NCBI GenBank assembly: GCA_015068825.1
Contig: SVJU01000016.1
Location: 1-46,083 of the forward strand
DNA length: 46,083 bases
Source of the DNA: Oscillospiraceae bacterium
Lineage (GTDB): Bacteria; Bacillota; Clostridia; UMGS1810
Reading direction: 5' to 3'
Positions within the stretch are counted from its first letter, which is position 1. Every line of letters begins with the position of its first letter. Below are positions 34,425 through 41,811 of this stretch, piece by piece. The position numbers and the translations under genes are program-made. The notes beneath the pieces are model-generated. The model searched no databases. It was not told where the DNA came from and saw nothing but the letters and a program-made list of their open reading frames with translations.

Positions 34425-35222
34425 TTATTGTTTGTACCGCGCATTATATTCGGATGGCGACACACCCATATATTTTTTGAATAACCGGCTGAAATAATAT
34501 ACACTTTCAAATCCGAGTGTATCAGAAATTTCGCTTATAACACTTTCTTCGCAAAGCAGCATACATGCTGCTTTTATTCTTAAACCGTTGCGGTAATCTA
34601 CCGGGGTTTTTCCAGTCACTTTTTTAAATAATCTGTACATATGAGTTTCACTCATATAGCAAAGCTTGCTTAGCTTTGATGCACATATTTCTTCAGTATA
34701 ATGGTCGTGAAGATATACAATTGCAGGAACAATTTTGCTTTGCATAGTGGCGGAATAATTAAAATTAAGGTCAGAGAGCATTTCATAAATAGTTGACATT
34801 GCCTTAAATTTACCACCAAATTCTGCACAGTTTTTCACAAGTGAAATAGTGTTTTTAAAAAAAATACTGTCTGCATTGTGTGTTACAAGCCAGGGAGTTC
34901 TGCAAAAAATTACTTCTTCCATATCATCCATATCGGTGATAGTAAAGCTTATACGGTAGAAAGTAATGCTTTCGCTCTCGATTGTGAGTTTATGTACCGA
35001 GCCTTTTGGAAGATATATAAGAGTTTGTGGTTTTATATCGCAGCTTCCGCCTTCCCATTCATATTTTCCTTCCCCATCTTCAACAAGTAAAAATCCGTTT
35101 AATGAACGGTTTTTTATTGTCGTAGTACGGTATTTTGGCGTTTGCTTTATTGCCGAAAGAGATGTTAGCGCAAATTTGGTTTTGTGCAAATCTGAAAATG
35201 GAATTATCTTCAAAAAAATCAC
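34425..35222 (-). CDS. AraC-family regulator, 5' end at a junction
   Basis: A 265-residue regulator with a cupin-like N-terminus (GFLLVEDGEGKYEW, IKPQTLIYLPKGSVHKL) and a complete double helix-turn-helix at the C-terminus (CASKLSKLCYMSETHMYRLF, ISDTLGFESVYYFSRLFKKY, MGVSPSEYNARY). The only long start is GTG 35222, without a clear ribosome site, and upstream sequence is at once the reverse strand of a xylanase carbohydrate-binding domain. It has no room for a promoter of its own. The N-terminus may therefore be altered by the same break that removed the start of the xylanase gene. Confidence 0.82.
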   Translation of the reverse strand: MIFLKIIPFSDLHKTKFALTSLSAIKQTPKYRTTTIKNRSLNGFLLVEDGEGKYEWEGGSCDIKPQTLIYLPKGSVHKLTIESESITFYRISFTITDMDDMEEVIFCRTPWLVTHNADSIFFKNTISLVKNCAEFGGKFKAMSTIYEMLSDLNFNYSATMQSKIVPAIVYLHDHYTEEICASKLSKLCYMSETHMYRLFKKVTGKTPVDYRNGLRIKAACMLLCEESVISEISDTLGFESVYYFSRLFKKYMGVSPSEYNARYKQ

Positions 35223-35229
35223 TTCTTTT

Positions 35230-37659
35230 ATGGCTCAGATTGCAGATGTTGAGGGTGAAAATCATCAGGAAGCGCCTTTGTATATAGCTGTGTTTAATGA
35301 CTCTGAATCAACAAATCCTAAATACGAAACAGCTTTTACTGTAAAAAAAGGCGTGTGGACAAAGCTTTATGTAGATGTTACCATTGCTACAACAAAGTAC
35401 ACAACTTTTGCTGTTCGATATCCTGATGAAGATGGTCTTACACTTAATGTAGTTGTTGATGATTATAAAATTGAAGAGATAAATAATACCATAACAGTGC
35501 AGTCATCAGGTTTTTATAATGCAATAGATAAAACTGTAAGAACTGTTAAAGCAGATGGATATGGTAAAAATGATTATGTTCTTTCAGCTGACATAACCAA
35601 TGTTGGTGATAAGGAGAAAGAAGTAACTTTAGTTTCAGCAGGATATAAAGATGGAATACTTACAAACGTTAATCTTGACAAAAAAAGTGTTCCTGTTGGC
35701 AAAAGTGAGCAAAATCTTGCTATTGCAATAGAGGATGATGCAGCTTACGATTACATAAAAACTTATGTGTGGAGTGGTGAGCATGTATTTCCTTTATCAA
35801 ACTCCCAAACTCTTACCAAGGAAGATACTTCATCACCAATACTTCCTGAGGTTTCTGTTTCTAATAAAGAAAGTAATCTTCCTTCAGGAACATATATTTT
35901 AAAAGAAACTGCAATTTTTTCAAGTGATTACGCAACTGCAAATTTTAAAGGCTTTTCTTCACAAACTACTTATACCGAAACAGGTGAGTATTCTACAGAT
36001 TATGGAAGAGTAAGCTATACTCAAATGAAGAATACCGATTCATCACTTCCGTTTGGACATAAGATTGGTGTAACAGTAACTGCATATCCTGAAGGAACTG
36101 ATATTGGTGGTAGAATTGTAACAAGACCAAATACCGAATCGATTTCAAAAGGTGATAATGTTCTTATTTCCTTCTGGGCAAGGGTAACCAGCTCAAGTCA
36201 GGATGATGGTGGCGGTGTTATTGGATTAAAATTCCAAAACGGCGCTCCAAATTACGAATTTTCATTAAATAGTACTGTTGCTACCACATCTGAGTGGACA
36301 AAACATTACATTTCGTTCACCTCTGAATATGACCATCCAAAAGGAAACAGTCAGCTTATGCTAAGGTTTTCAAATGCCATTCAAACTATTGAATTAGCAG
36401 ATTTTTCTATGGTTAATTACAAAGATAGTGTATCTTTAAATGACATGCCAAAAACGAGCTATACATATTATCAGGGTATGGAAGAAGATGCTACATGGAG
36501 AGAAGAAGCTGATGAAAGAATTGAACAGTATCGTAAACGTGATATTTATGTTACTGTAAAAGATGCCAATGGAAACGAAGTTGAAGGAGCAACTGTTTCT
36601 GTTGATATGACATCGCATTATTTTGATTTTGGCGGTATGATTTACGAGGAACCCGGATATTATGAAGAAAATCCAAGTGAAACATATAGCGAGAATATGT
36701 TTGATGCAATAAAAGAAAATTTTAATACTATCGTTATAGGAAATAATTTAAAATGGCCAAGATGGGAAACAGCAAAGTATAAAGAGAGAGCACTTAATGT
36801 AATAGCATGGGCAAAAGAAAACGGATTAAAAGTAAGAGGACATAATCTTATATGGGATAGTCCGTCACATATGCCTGATTATATAGTGGATATTTTTGAC
36901 GATGGAACAGCACTTATGAATAGAATACATTCGCATATTAAAGATATTGTGACTACAACAAAAGACGATATTTATGAGTGGGATGTTATAAATGAGCCTA
37001 TTTTAAATGACGGGATCAGACAAAAATATGGATATGCTCCTTATGCAAAGTTTTTTGAGTGGGCAAGAAAATACAATCCTAATGCAAAGCTATATGTAAA
37101 TGATGCCAGCGTTTTAGGTGTAAATTCCAGAAACTATATTCAGTTAAAGGAATTTCTTGCTGAAATGGCGAATTATAATGTTGATTATGATGCAATAGGT
37201 TTAGAAGGACATTTTAAAGCTCCGTGCAGTATTACAGAGTTTTACAATCAGCTTGAAGAACTCGCAGAATTTGGTAAAGAAATAAAAATTACAGAATTTG
37301 ACGTAAATACAGAAGATGATATAAAAGCACATTTTGCAAAGGATTTACTTACAATATGCTTCAGCCATCCAAAAGTAAACGGATTTTTAATGTGGGTATG
37401 GTGGTCAGACAACACAAAAAGTGTAATGTATAACTCAAATTCTCAAATTAAACCTTCAGGCGAACAAATGATTGACTTGATTTATAATAAATGGTGGACA
37501 AACAACCGAGGTAAAACAGCTTATGACGGAAGGTATATTTCAAGAGGTTTTTATGGTGATTACACAATTACAGTTTCTAAAAACGGAGTTTCAAATCAGG
37601 AAAAGGTAACTGTAAAACCAAATTCAGATAATAAATTCACAATTGTGATTGGAGAATAA
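35230..37659 (+). CDS. GH10 endo-xylanase with CBM-like modules, 5'-truncated
   Basis: Endo-1,4-beta-xylanase. The frame stays open upstream to 34966, but that part is the reverse complement of the AraC gene and is not real. Homologous sequence begins near 35221 at SFMAQIADVEG, which aligns with SFWARVTSSSQ of the second module, so about half of the first CBM-like domain and any signal peptide are missing. ATG 35230 has no ribosome site. A second CBM-like domain spans about 35,870-36,430. The GH10 barrel follows, with RGHNLIWDSPSHMPDYI, acid/base Glu in WDVINEPIL and nucleophile Glu in IKITEFDVN. A short Ig-like tail ends the protein. Without export it should not reach xylan. Truncation or misassembly cannot be told apart here. 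Confidence 0.85.
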   Translation: MAQIADVEGENHQEAPLYIAVFNDSESTNPKYETAFTVKKGVWTKLYVDVTIATTKYTTFAVRYPDEDGLTLNVVVDDYKIEEINNTITVQSSGFYNAIDKTVRTVKADGYGKNDYVLSADITNVGDKEKEVTLVSAGYKDGILTNVNLDKKSVPVGKSEQNLAIAIEDDAAYDYIKTYVWSGEHVFPLSNSQTLTKEDTSSPILPEVSVSNKESNLPSGTYILKETAIFSSDYATANFKGFSSQTTYTETGEYSTDYGRVSYTQMKNTDSSLPFGHKIGVTVTAYPEGTDIGGRIVTRPNTESISKGDNVLISFWARVTSSSQDDGGGVIGLKFQNGAPNYEFSLNSTVATTSEWTKHYISFTSEYDHPKGNSQLMLRFSNAIQTIELADFSMVNYKDSVSLNDMPKTSYTYYQGMEEDATWREEADERIEQYRKRDIYVTVKDANGNEVEGATVSVDMTSHYFDFGGMIYEEPGYYEENPSETYSENMFDAIKENFNTIVIGNNLKWPRWETAKYKERALNVIAWAKENGLKVRGHNLIWDSPSHMPDYIVDIFDDGTALMNRIHSHIKDIVTTTKDDIYEWDVINEPILNDGIRQKYGYAPYAKFFEWARKYNPNAKLYVNDASVLGVNSRNYIQLKEFLAEMANYNVDYDAIGLEGHFKAPCSITEFYNQLEELAEFGKEIKITEFDVNTEDDIKAHFAKDLLTICFSHPKVNGFLMWVWWSDNTKSVMYNSNSQIKPSGEQMIDLIYNKWWTNNRGKTAYDGRYISRGFYGDYTITVSKNGVSNQEKVTVKPNSDNKFTIVIGE

Positions 37660-37923
37660 CAAAAAATGAAAAACATAATTTTAAAGATTCACAATGAAGG
37701 CTTTGATGTTTATGTTAAATTCTAATTATGAATAAATTTATTTTATATAATCAGGTTGTTTAAAAATCGCTTTCTTTTGTTTGATTTAAACTTTAAGAGT
37801 TATATTCTAATAAAAAACATACCGAGCGTTTTGTGCAAAAAACATATCGCTATGTGTATTGAAAATAAAAAATTACTGTGTTAATATCAAGTTGTAATTA
37901 AAATTATGTTCAGGAGTGATATT

Positions 37924-38964
37924 ATGACAGCAGAACAAATAAAAGAAGCAGCCAAAAGACTTGGCGCAGATATTGTAGGTATTGGTTCAATAGATAGGTG
38001 GGAAGGAGCTCCTGCCCAGATGGACCCGCGATATATTATGCCCAAAGCAAAATCAGTAATTGCTATGGGGTTCAGGGTATTTCGCGGAAGTTTAAGAGGT
38101 ATTGAAGAAGGAACCTTCTTCTCAAACTACTCTTCTATGGGATACGGTGGTATTACATATATGTATATGCCACAAACTTGTATAAATTTATGTAAGCTTA
38201 TCGAGGATGAAGGCTACGAAGCAATTCCTATAGGCCATCAGAGCGACTGGCGTGCAATAGATAACATCGGAAACTTGAAAGAAAACTTTTCAAGACCTGT
38301 TGAACCGGGTAAACCATATCCTGATATTATGGTTCATTTAAGAATCGCAGGATTTTTATGCGGTCTTGGTGAAATCGGCTGGAGTAAAATGCTTTTAACT
38401 CCCGAATTTGGTCCAAGAGTTCGTATTGGTATTATTCTTACCGAAATGGAGCTTGAACCTGATCCGATTATGGAGCCGGGAACACTTTGTAATCGCTGTA
38501 TGGCGTGTGTTCGTGAATGTCCCGGTGGATGTATTCCTAAAGATAAATCTGTAAAGGTTAATCTTGCAGGTTATGATGTAGAATGGGCAGATGTTGACCT
38601 TATTGGTTGTGATGATACATTTAAAGGCGCCGAAAAAGCAAAAGAAGGAGAAAAAGGCGATTATATTGCTAAACGCCCGGGTGAGTTTAAACCTGCTTTC
38701 TTCTCGCCATTTTATAAAAAACCGCATAATCTTTATAACACAGGACAGGCAATTTGTGGTGCTAAGGGTTGTACAAGAGCTTGTATGATAAGCTTGGAGT
38801 CAAGAGGTGTTCTTAAAAACAAATTCAAAAGTCCCTTCCGTACCAAAAAACTATGGAGTATGGATTGGTCGCCTGAGGGAATTGCAAATGATCAGCCTGC
38901 ACCATATACACCGCCTTATGCAGGAAGAGATAATTCTGACAAAAAGGCTGATGATGCTGATTAA
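37924..38964 (+). CDS. QueG/reductive-dehalogenase-like two-cluster Fe-S protein
   Basis: A 346-residue cytoplasmic redox protein of unknown function. ATG 37924 is chosen because AGGAG lies seven bases upstream. ATG 37906 would put that site inside the gene. A ferredoxin motif CNRCMACVRECPGGCIP (Cys 189, 192, 195 and 199) can hold a [4Fe-4S] cluster. A second set, CGAKGCTRAC (Cys 278, 283 and 287), may help form another. The segment RIAGFLCGLGEIGWSKML resembles the GLGWIG region of epoxyqueuosine reductase QueG, which is related to corrinoid reductive dehalogenases. It has no Tat signal. It heads a three-gene set with a U32-like protein and an AraC gene. Corrinoid binding is inference only. 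Confidence 0.72.
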   Translation: MTAEQIKEAAKRLGADIVGIGSIDRWEGAPAQMDPRYIMPKAKSVIAMGFRVFRGSLRGIEEGTFFSNYSSMGYGGITYMYMPQTCINLCKLIEDEGYEAIPIGHQSDWRAIDNIGNLKENFSRPVEPGKPYPDIMVHLRIAGFLCGLGEIGWSKMLLTPEFGPRVRIGIILTEMELEPDPIMEPGTLCNRCMACVRECPGGCIPKDKSVKVNLAGYDVEWADVDLIGCDDTFKGAEKAKEGEKGDYIAKRPGEFKPAFFSPFYKKPHNLYNTGQAICGAKGCTRACMISLESRGVLKNKFKSPFRTKKLWSMDWSPEGIANDQPAPYTPPYAGRDNSDKKADDAD

Positions 38965-38976
38965 AGGAGAATTGTA

Positions 38977-40008
38977 ATGAAGTTTGCCGTTGGTTTTCAG
39001 TTAAGCGAAGGAAACGAAGAAAATTTTTCGAATATAGTGAAATCTTATAAAGATAACATATCCGAAGTGTTTTTTGCGTGGCAGGATATTCCATCAGGAA
39101 GAAGTGGTGTTGCATCACTTCATGGATATACCGACTGGAATGCCCAAAAAAGGGTAGAGGATGAGCTTCGTACCATTAAAAAAATGGGCATAAAACTTGA
39201 CCTTTTGTTTAACGGAAACTGTTATGGTGAGTATTCATTATCAGAAAAGCTTTCAAATAATGTTGTTTCGGTTATAGAACATCTTGAAAATGAGGTGGGT
39301 GGTGTAGATATTGTCACCACCACTTCACTTATGATTGCACATACTATAAAAAAGCATTTTCCGCATATCGAACTAAGAGCATCTGTGAATATGAAAATAG
39401 GCACAGTTAAAGGTATGGAATATGTTTCGGATTTGTTTGATTCTTTTTATGTGCAAAGAGAATATAACCGTGATTTAGAATATATCAAAGAATTAAAAAA
39501 ATGGGCAGATAAAAATAATAAAAAGCTTCTTATGCTTGCTAATAGCGGATGTTTTTCTCATTGTTCTGGTCAAACATTTCATGATAATCTTGTGTCGCAT
39601 GAAGCTCAAATTTGTGAAGTGTTAAATATCGATGATTTTAATCCTTATGTTTGCAGACGGGTTTTAAAGGATAGGGGAAACTGGCATAAAATCTTGCAAA
39701 ACACATGGGTAAGACCAGAGGATATACACAACTATGAAGGATTATTTGATACTATAAAACTTGCAACAAGAATGCATACACTTCCGGGAATGGTTATTGC
39801 ATCTTATGTAAGAGGAAGTTTTTACGGAAATACTCTCGACCTTTTTGAACCTGGCTACGGAAGAGTGCTTGCTCCGTATGTAATAGACAACTCAGCTTTT
39901 CCTAAAGATTGGTTTGAAAAAACAACAGGTTGTAATAAAAAGTGTCATGAATGTAACTATTGTAAAGAAGTATTTGAAAAAGTGCTTGTTAATCAGGAGA
40001 ATATGTAA
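38977..40008 (+). CDS. Peptidase U32-like Fe-S protein
   Basis: A 343-residue TIM-barrel protein like the U32 group. Members such as UbiU/UbiV and RlhA use an Fe-S cluster in oxygen-independent hydroxylation, while others are called collagenase-like peptidases. Four cysteines (C192, C196, C213 and C226) in LANSGCFSHCSGQT and after it fit a cluster site. The C-terminus TTGCNKKCHECNYCKEVF adds a C-x3-C-x2-C-x2-C set that could bind a second cluster. It starts twelve bases after the QueG-like gene behind AAAGGAG and overlaps the AraC gene by one base. The target, protein, RNA or small molecule, is unknown. Confidence 0.72.
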   Translation: MKFAVGFQLSEGNEENFSNIVKSYKDNISEVFFAWQDIPSGRSGVASLHGYTDWNAQKRVEDELRTIKKMGIKLDLLFNGNCYGEYSLSEKLSNNVVSVIEHLENEVGGVDIVTTTSLMIAHTIKKHFPHIELRASVNMKIGTVKGMEYVSDLFDSFYVQREYNRDLEYIKELKKWADKNNKKLLMLANSGCFSHCSGQTFHDNLVSHEAQICEVLNIDDFNPYVCRRVLKDRGNWHKILQNTWVRPEDIHNYEGLFDTIKLATRMHTLPGMVIASYVRGSFYGNTLDLFEPGYGRVLAPYVIDNSAFPKDWFEKTTGCNKKCHECNYCKEVFEKVLVNQENM

Positions 40009-40844
40009 TGGCTATTCTTAATTGGAAAAATATAAATATCAGTGATGTCTGTATTTATGATATTTCTTTTGTGTCAGGATTTAGAAAAGCTGGCAGAACG
40101 GTGAATTTTAAAGAACATGGCCGTTCTAAAAATGCAATTTTGTATATTGAACAAGGCTCTGCTGATTTTTTTGAAGAGGGTAAAGCTACAAAGACGGCTT
40201 CAAAAGGTGATTTGGTACTTATACCAAAAGGTGACCGATATATCGTAAAATTCAAAGAGGATGATACAAAGATATACCTTGTAAATTACGATATGATTTT
40301 ACCTGACAGTACACCTGTTTGTTTTGCTGATGAGATAGAAATTATTATGCATACAATGGCAGCGGCATATATTAAAGAGATACTTTCCAAAATCGAAGCA
40401 AGCTTTTTAAGAGAGGATAACGCAGCAATTTTCAGAAGAAAAGAGCTTGTGTATCGGCTTTTGTCAAATATATTTCAGGATGAATGGTCAACGCTTTTGC
40501 CAAATAATCCCAAATTTTCTAATATTGCCAAGGGGATTCGTATGCTTCAGCAGACATATCTTGAAAACATTCCGATTTCGCATATTGCAAAAGCTTGCAA
40601 TATCGGTGTAAGCTCGTTCAGGAGATTGTTTACTGAATGTTATGGAATTTCGCCTGTAAATTACAGGAATCAGCTTCGTATAAGACGTGCAAAGTTGCTG
40701 CTTCGTGACGGTGGATATACCATATCAGAGGTAGCGGAAGAATCGGGCTTTTCAAACGTAGCTTATTTTTGCAGATATTACAAAAAAATGGTTGGCGAAT
40801 CTCCCGGAAAAGTACTTTTTAAAGCTAAATCTAAATCAGAATAA
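40008..40844 (+). CDS. AraC-family regulator of the Fe-S cassette
   Basis: A 278-residue regulator whose start codon shares a base with the stop of the U32-like gene, so it is translated from the same transcript. The N-terminal cupin-like region has ILYIEQGSADFFEEG and ASKGDLVLIPKGDRYIVKF. The C-terminal DNA-binding domain is complete: PISHIAKACNIGVSSFRRLF, SPVNYRNQLRIRRAKLLL and EVAEESGFSNVAYFCRYYKK. The target is unknown. It could regulate its own operon or the two copied promoter modules directly downstream. Confidence 0.9.
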   Translation: MAILNWKNINISDVCIYDISFVSGFRKAGRTVNFKEHGRSKNAILYIEQGSADFFEEGKATKTASKGDLVLIPKGDRYIVKFKEDDTKIYLVNYDMILPDSTPVCFADEIEIIMHTMAAAYIKEILSKIEASFLREDNAAIFRRKELVYRLLSNIFQDEWSTLLPNNPKFSNIAKGIRMLQQTYLENIPISHIAKACNIGVSSFRRLFTECYGISPVNYRNQLRIRRAKLLLRDGGYTISEVAEESGFSNVAYFCRYYKKMVGESPGKVLFKAKSKSE

Positions 40845-40850
40845 AATGTA

Positions 40851-40880
40851 AAAAAGCACATTGTAAGCAATGTGCTTTTT
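40851..40880 (+). terminator. Rho-independent terminator of the Fe-S cassette
   Basis: AAAAAGCACATTG (40851-40863) pairs perfectly with CAATGTGCTTTTT (40868-40880) across loop TAAG. Confidence 0.88.
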
Positions 40881-40991: not shown

Positions 40992-41804
40992 ATGAACGAA
41001 AACAGCTTTTGGAATTTGGGAGTTTCATCGTGCTTATATGGGAATTTTAATGATGAATTTTTAAAGCAGTTACAACAAAATGATATTCATTATACAGAAA
41101 TAAGCGGTGGCAGAAATTCATTTTTTTAAGATACAGATTTTGTTAAAAATGCCGATAAAAATTTTAAAAATGCTTTAACATACGAAGTAACAATAAATTC
41201 GATTCACCTGCCGTTTGTACCTCCGAGTGAGGTTGATTTAAAGCAGTCATACGGTGAAATTTATAATAATACAATTAAAATATATACAGAACTTATAAAA
41301 GCTTCTGCAAATGCCGGAATAAAGTATGCAGTAATACATTCAGGGCTTGGAGTAAAGCCGGAGCAGGACAGAAACGAAGTTTATAACATTGTTTGTTCTA
41401 ATCTTAAAAAGTTATGTGAAATATCAAAAGAAGCCGGAATAAAGCTTGCGATTGAAAATTTAAAACCAGCAGCTATAGGCGGAACAAAAGAGGAAATTTA
41501 TAGCCTTATTAATGAAATAGATGACTTAGGCGTGTGCTTTGATACAAACCATTCTCTATGTCAGACAAATGAAGATTTTATAAGACTTATAAAAGATCGT
41601 ATAGTAACTCTTCATGTATCTGATTATGATTTTGTTGATGAACAACATTGGTTACCACTTTGTGGAAAAATTAATTGGAAGAGTATTATTAACGAACTTA
41701 AAAAAGTGGGTTATGACGGAATATTTACATACGAGGTTCCGTCAAAGGATTCAGTTACTGTAGCTGAAATCAAAGAGAATTATATTAAGCTGATGAATTT
41801 ATAA
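40992..41804 (+). pseudogene. Sugar phosphate isomerase/epimerase-like TIM barrel with one in-frame TAA
   Basis: A xylose-isomerase-like TIM barrel protein (AP endonuclease 2 family) of 270 codons, behind GGGGGAG. Codon 46 (41127-41129) is TAA, in ISGGRNSFF-stop-DTDFVKNAD. All later codons stay in frame, and family features are seen: INSIHLPFVPP, YAVIHSGLG, KLAIENLKPA, GVCFDTNHSLC, VTLHVSDYD and IFTYEVPS, with likely metal ligands in E, D, H and H. Internal start sites after the stop would lose the first two strands of the barrel. It has a copied promoter module and its own terminator, so expression signals are intact. A single base change or a sequencing error would explain it. Confidence 0.82.
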
Positions 41805-41811
41805 AAATAAG

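Follow-up and report, generated by a model that had tools for sequence, protein, structure and literature searches.

An RdhA/QueG-superfamily protein and a divergent protein of predicted U32 fold form a conserved gene pair behind a putative AraC-type operator in an Oscillospiraceae bacterium

Within the window, i.e. the whole stretch of 46,083 nucleotides that was analysed, the ORF check confirmed as real a cassette of three genes on the + strand, coding respectively for an RdhA/QueG-superfamily protein with a predicted cobamide and two predicted [4Fe-4S] clusters (gene 1), a divergent protein of predicted U32 fold with two conserved four-cysteine sets (gene 2) and an AraC-family regulator (gene 3). 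We consider it rather probable that the cassette is an operon for an inducible, cytosolic, anaerobic and cobamide-requiring redox enzyme pair with a small-molecule substrate. More tentatively, and with somewhat less than even confidence, we propose that it represents a new class of anaerobic enzymes pairing a cobamide reductase with a U32 oxidase-type protein; the two would work as one small-molecule system, with one or three reductase subunits and an AraC control that draws in B12. The gene order, the co-occurrence, the folds, the conserved residues, the operator and the sharing of its site with B12 genes were all computed here.

Gene 1 (37924..38964, 346 aa), gene 2 (38977..40008, 343 aa) and gene 3 (40008..40844, 278 aa) are spaced by 12 and -1 bases, and a single intrinsic terminator with a 13-pair stem and a T-rich tail is found on the same strand at 40851..40880; the gaps and the common end announced by the original prediction were thus borne out by the ORFs and by the hairpin. 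An alternative in-frame ATG is available for gene 1 at 37906, the start at 37924 being preferred because of the AGGAG at 37912-37916 and of the homologue alignment. Taken as a whole, one operon is the best explanation for the three genes, and a fairly likely one. Downstream of the cassette, an ORF resembling a sugar isomerase (40992-41807, about 270 codons) is interrupted by an in-frame TAA after 45 codons and is therefore a pseudogene or contains a sequencing error. At 34425-37659 of the window, a GH10 xylanase ORF has a called start (34966) that falls within an AraC gene of the opposite strand (34425-35222), so that the true start is probably further downstream.

The Pfam search with gene 1 returned weak ferredoxin matches only. 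With the NCBIfam profiles, 49.6 bits were obtained for RDH (RdhA, TIGR02486; residues 143-210 only) and 33.2 bits for QueG (TIGR00276), both matches being confined to the first cluster region; since these scores are far under the respective cut-offs of 160 and 200 bits, gene 1 stands outside both curated families. Its identity to reductive dehalogenases is about 25%. An AlphaFold2 model of gene 1 was built from 47 homologues (pLDDT 89.7) and compared with known structures by Foldseek and VIA-align. The best matches were RdhA 8q4h (Z 16.4), PceA (4ur3, Z 16.2) and QueG (Z 16.2), NpRdhA being matched too, and the next one was the human B12 chaperone MMACHC (Z 9.2). Because RdhA, QueG and then MMACHC are the best matches of the model, the predicted fold is the cobamide-binding one of the RdhA/QueG superfamily, nitroreductase-like as in the dehalogenases PceA, NpRdhA and BhbA. 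The structure prediction proposed earlier for this protein thus recovered this fold, from which binding of a cobamide by gene 1 may be presumed.

The motifs of two [4Fe-4S] clusters, as in RdhA, are present in gene 1 as C189xxC192xxC195xxxC199 and C229, C278, C283 and C287. Seven of these eight cysteines are invariant and C278 is replaced in 9 of the 47 homologues. The arrangement of the clusters is shared with QueG; for the label QueG-like initially given to gene 1, RdhA-like is the better choice in view of the two profile scores.

Two positions of gene 1 are compatible with the active site of RdhA. R167, invariant in the 47 homologues and in three paralogues of a second cluster (see below), aligns with Lys488 of NpRdhA and Arg305 of PceA (numbering from the PDB sequences), whereas E. 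coli QueG has a Phe at this place. Position 79 lies 17 residues ahead of a conserved Gly in 47/47 homologues, the same distance that separates Tyr246 from its own Gly in PceA. It is occupied by Tyr in 38 of the 47 homologues and by Glu in all three tandem paralogues, suggesting that an RdhA-like chemistry may vary. Tyr81, which a gapped profile alignment had given as the equivalent of PceA Tyr246, was dropped in favour of Y79, for which the ungapped spacing matches. In PceA, Tyr246 and Arg305 line the pocket (PMC5500849). On the basis of position, and not of a solved structure, Y79 and R167 are therefore the candidate counterparts of the RdhA active-site Tyr and Arg/Lys. Asp134, present in 46 of the 47 homologues, is at or beside the position of PceA Asn272 and of the catalytic aspartate of QueG.

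These residues, and the fact that the best sequence and fold matches of gene 1 are PceA and NpRdhA, would suit a true non-respiratory reductive dehalogenase acting on natural organohalides, with the U32 protein as electron supply or second step. We nevertheless regard such an enzyme as rather unlikely here: the RDH score reaches less than a third of its cut-off, the paralogues carry Glu at position 79, neither a leader peptide, twin-arginine or other, nor an RdhB anchor was seen with gene 1, and no RdhA with a U32 partner was found in the open-licence literature. The gene 1 type also differs from the dehalogenases in having a U32-fold protein as partner in nearly all cases and in occurring as three paralogues in the second cluster. 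To our knowledge, only the reductive dehalogenases and QueG have been characterised within the RdhA/QueG superfamily.

Gene 2 gave 18.1 bits with Pfam PF01136 (Peptidase_U32), for which the cut-off is 22.4, and 11 of its 51 homologues match this family at E 0.001 or better. The sequence search yielded no PDB match for gene 2, and a PHROG match of 22 bits concerned a group of unknown function. The AF2 model (pLDDT 91.4) was superimposed on the U32 protein 5D88 with a Z of 18.7 over 225 residues, the next matches being unrelated barrels at 12.2, and points to the U32 TIM-barrel fold. As in the U32 oxidases UbiU/UbiV, TrhP and RlhA, four conserved cysteines are found in the predicted barrel (C82, C192, C196 and C226), and one of them lies near the start of the barrel, a feature known from UbiV (PMC6747719). 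They are spaced CX109CX3CX29C, in contrast to the CX6CX15CX3/4C motif of the U32 oxidases (PMC6747719), and an extra C-terminal set, C319xxxC323xxC326xxC329 (CX3CX2CX2C), is present. Each of the eight cysteines is conserved in 50 or 51 of the 51 homologues, in agreement with the four barrel cysteines and second C-terminal set read from the sequence at the outset. Because there are two conserved four-cysteine sets, gene 2 likely carries two [4Fe-4S] clusters, as judged from its sequence. A further difference from the U32 oxidases lies in the partner of gene 2, which is RdhA-like instead of being a second U32 protein.

When 84,980 species genomes were scanned, gene 2 proved to have 370 relatives, of which the best 79 loci were analysed; many genomes of the survey are metagenome bins. 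These best 79 of the 370 loci belong to gut Clostridia of herbivores, to digesters and to Armatimonadota, Lentisphaerota, Kiritimatiellota, Planctomycetota, Chloroflexi, Zipacnadia/WS1, Verrucomicrobiia and one Spirochaetales bin. A gene of the gene 1 type (RDH) directly precedes the U32 gene in 57 of the 79, usually at a distance of a few bases or with an overlap, and follows it in 3; in six more loci (L070, L076, L101, L107, L108 and L115), the two adjoin with a start call or a spurious ORF between them. The neighbourhood across genomes, a check that had been put forward with the original prediction, therefore came out in its favour. Among 391 genomes of the class, the U32 clade was detected in 22 (E<1e-70), all 22 of which also hold the RDH clade (E<1e-50), and the RDH clade occurs without U32 in six (G026, G063, G084, G126, G149 and G254). 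The RDH and U32 distance matrices correlate with an r of 0.70 (0/5000 permutations). No description of an RDH-U32 pair was found in the open-licence papers, and an earlier description elsewhere is possible.

When neighbouring genes were clustered, only RDH, U32 and AraC were frequent, Gfo/Idh/MocA coming next with 11 loci, and neither this clustering nor the Pfam tally revealed a conserved dedicated transporter or downstream enzyme beside the pair. In the Pfam tally, the 99 neighbouring genes showed no recurring glycan family, and the cassette is also carried by groundwater, digester, soda-lake and cold-seep bacteria, habitats being taken from the bin names. These results do not support the glycan region and the plant or host compound that had been suggested for the cassette. 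The idea of an inducible anaerobic redox pathway, which had been advanced together with them, finds support in the AraC operator and in the control shared with B12 uptake, both described below, so that only the redox half of the first interpretation is upheld.

Other arrangements of the same genes were observed. On contig C39 of the same genome (L007 3208-8194), a second cluster combines a divergent AraC gene with a U32 gene (43% identity to gene 2) and three tandem RDH genes; this order was met again in further families of the class, and the form with U32 and three RDH genes is present in many other genomes. This second cluster adjoins GH43 and CBM9 genes. Upstream of the second cluster type, 21-bp direct repeats occurred in only 3 of 6 loci, and no claim is made for them. 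In a third form, an AraC gene stands opposite two RDH genes without U32 (L173, L174 and L175). Fusions of RDH modules of 750-850 aa also exist (L165 4757-7315, 852 aa; L131 6151-8421, 756 aa), in which the middle module is devoid of cluster cysteines, and these natural fusions suggest that RDH modules can work together. In genome G027, many diverged RDH-like genes are scattered on contigs C5, C22, C35, C43, C51, C55, C84, C160 and C174, several of them opposite AraC-type genes, which suggests an expansion for different inducers.

The regulator announced as an AraC sensor was recognized as such: gene 3 has an AraC-type helix-turn-helix (HTH_18, 77.7 bits for a cut-off of 33.6, E 8.5e-22) and an N-terminal cupin-like sensor whose score is just below the AraC_binding cut-off. 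Upstream of gene 1, a putative AraC-type operator and a promoter were newly found at 37827-37887, a region absent from the original prediction. The operator (37827..37863, + strand) is made of two direct-repeat half-sites 21 bp apart, CGTTTTGTGCAAAAAA at 37827-37842 and CGCTATGTGTATTGAA at 37848-37863. It corresponds to a 40-bp element upstream of the gene 1 homologues, in which the half-sites, with the same 21-bp spacing, have the consensus TGTCGTTTTGTGTAATAAA and CGTTTTGTTTCTTG, and which is kept in 18 of the 19 loci with a co-oriented AraC as third gene. The promoter located by pattern scan (37859..37887, + strand) has a -35 box TTGAAA at 37859-37864, a spacer of 17 bp and a -10 box TAATAT at 37882-37887, and a -10-like box follows the operator at near-constant spacing in the other loci. 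With a leave-one-out matrix, the true operator was ranked first in 17 of the 18 loci; that of the window scored 25.9, the next best of 92,088 positions reaching 10.7, and no site above 12.1 was detected in the loci lacking a co-oriented AraC gene. Half-site 2 overlaps the -35 box in the window, and a direct-repeat operator lying against the -35 box of its target is the layout expected for AraC-type activation.

With a relaxed operator pattern, two matches were obtained in the own genome (G000), one in the window and the other at C56:4463-4496 (minus strand). About 110 bp downstream of the latter comes a cobalamin riboswitch, and behind it an ECF transporter operon that encodes a CbiQ-like T component together with two fused ATPases and an S component. 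On this contig (L184, 426-4496), the two ATPases and the S component form a single 897-aa protein behind the riboswitch and the AraC-type operator. A search through 21 cassette-bearing genomes yielded further operator sites before cobalamin riboswitches. A matrix trained on the cassette promoters only gave, near cobalamin riboswitches, scores of 16.7 (G000), 17.3 (G003), 21.7 (G008), 40.6 (G393) and 42.0 (G395). In these five genomes, own included, the operator matches are 36-108 bp upstream of riboswitches, the G395 site having an AdoCbl-II riboswitch at a comparable distance. Over the 120,596 positions of the riboswitch loci scanned, only four scored at least 15 and all four are these riboswitch-associated sites, the fifth (G395) having been scanned separately. 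Two other operator matches, G066:C25 and G397:C68, have no B12 riboswitch and were taken as unproven or chance. The genes behind the riboswitch-associated sites include ECF transporter parts and DUF4430 proteins, DUF4430 being a domain in common with the transcobalamin C terminus (PMC4350170). We infer from the shared pattern that the AraC protein of the cassette may bind the B12-gene sites too. Such a control resembles that of PocR, an AraC-family activator over the pdu and cob operons which commands both diol use and B12 synthesis (PMC3162504), in that a B12-dependent enzyme system and a B12 supply would be switched on together; unlike with PocR, the second target here is a set of B12-uptake-type genes behind a riboswitch.

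The operator common to the cassette and to the B12-uptake-type genes, together with the resemblance of the gene 1 fold to the B12 chaperone MMACHC, could also mean that the cassette handles the cobamide itself, for instance by reductive processing of imported B12, the AraC protein then responding to a cobamide or to the redox state. This appears improbable, as gene 1 is much closer to the catalytic RdhA and QueG (Z 16) than to the chaperone, as the diverged multi-copy paralogues speak for different substrates, like the additional U32 partner, and as most of the other cobalamin riboswitches scanned in the 21 genomes are without operator site.

The own genome carries another QueG-type gene (G000 C36:103584-104276), which scored 188 bits for the QueG cut-off of 200, and strong canonical U32 matches were found on two other contigs. 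One internal TAA is present within the QueG-type match, compatible with a pseudogene or an assembly error. In view of the low profile scores and of these separate QueG-type and U32 genes, neither gene 1 nor gene 2 is the orthologue of a known tRNA enzyme; such an orthology had been named as refuting the original prediction, which thus passed this check too. Gene 1 further differs from QueG by its AraC regulation and its sporadic occurrence. RNA modification of the QueG or U32 kind is usually constitutive. The possibility that the two proteins modify a tRNA or rRNA base in two steps, to which the closeness of gene 1 to QueG and the RNA-modifying activity of QueG and of the U32 proteins TrhP and RlhA (PMC11574389, PMC6599085) lend some credit, is very improbable, given that only about 22-28 of the 391 genomes of the class possess the clade, that it is controlled by a local AraC switch, that it has many diverged copies in some genomes and that it coexists with the separate genes just described.

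For the inducible small-molecule redox pair that we favour, the following scheme can be proposed. The AraC protein would sense a small molecule and bind the 21-bp direct repeat at the -35 box, turning the operon on, and, through the matching site before riboswitch-controlled B12-uptake-type genes in the own and at least four other genomes, more cofactor would probably be imported simultaneously. Gene 1 would bind a cobamide as well as two [4Fe-4S] clusters and would use an active site containing Tyr79 and Arg167 for an RdhA-type reductive cleavage of a C-X or C-O bond, and gene 2 would either work on the same substrate or hand electrons to gene 1. The reductive chemistry, the small-molecule nature of the substrate and the role of the U32 protein are what we infer from the features described above.

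The presence of the RDH-U32 pair across many anaerobe phyla and of its operator before B12 genes suggests an as yet unnamed reaction that depends on B12. The characterised U32 oxidases act on RNA and on ubiquinone precursors (PMC11574389). If our reading is true, the RdhA/QueG fold would have a further function and another U32 protein would have a small-molecule role, and the import of B12 by gut and sediment bacteria would become easier to explain. The operator offers a direct handle for finding the inducer.
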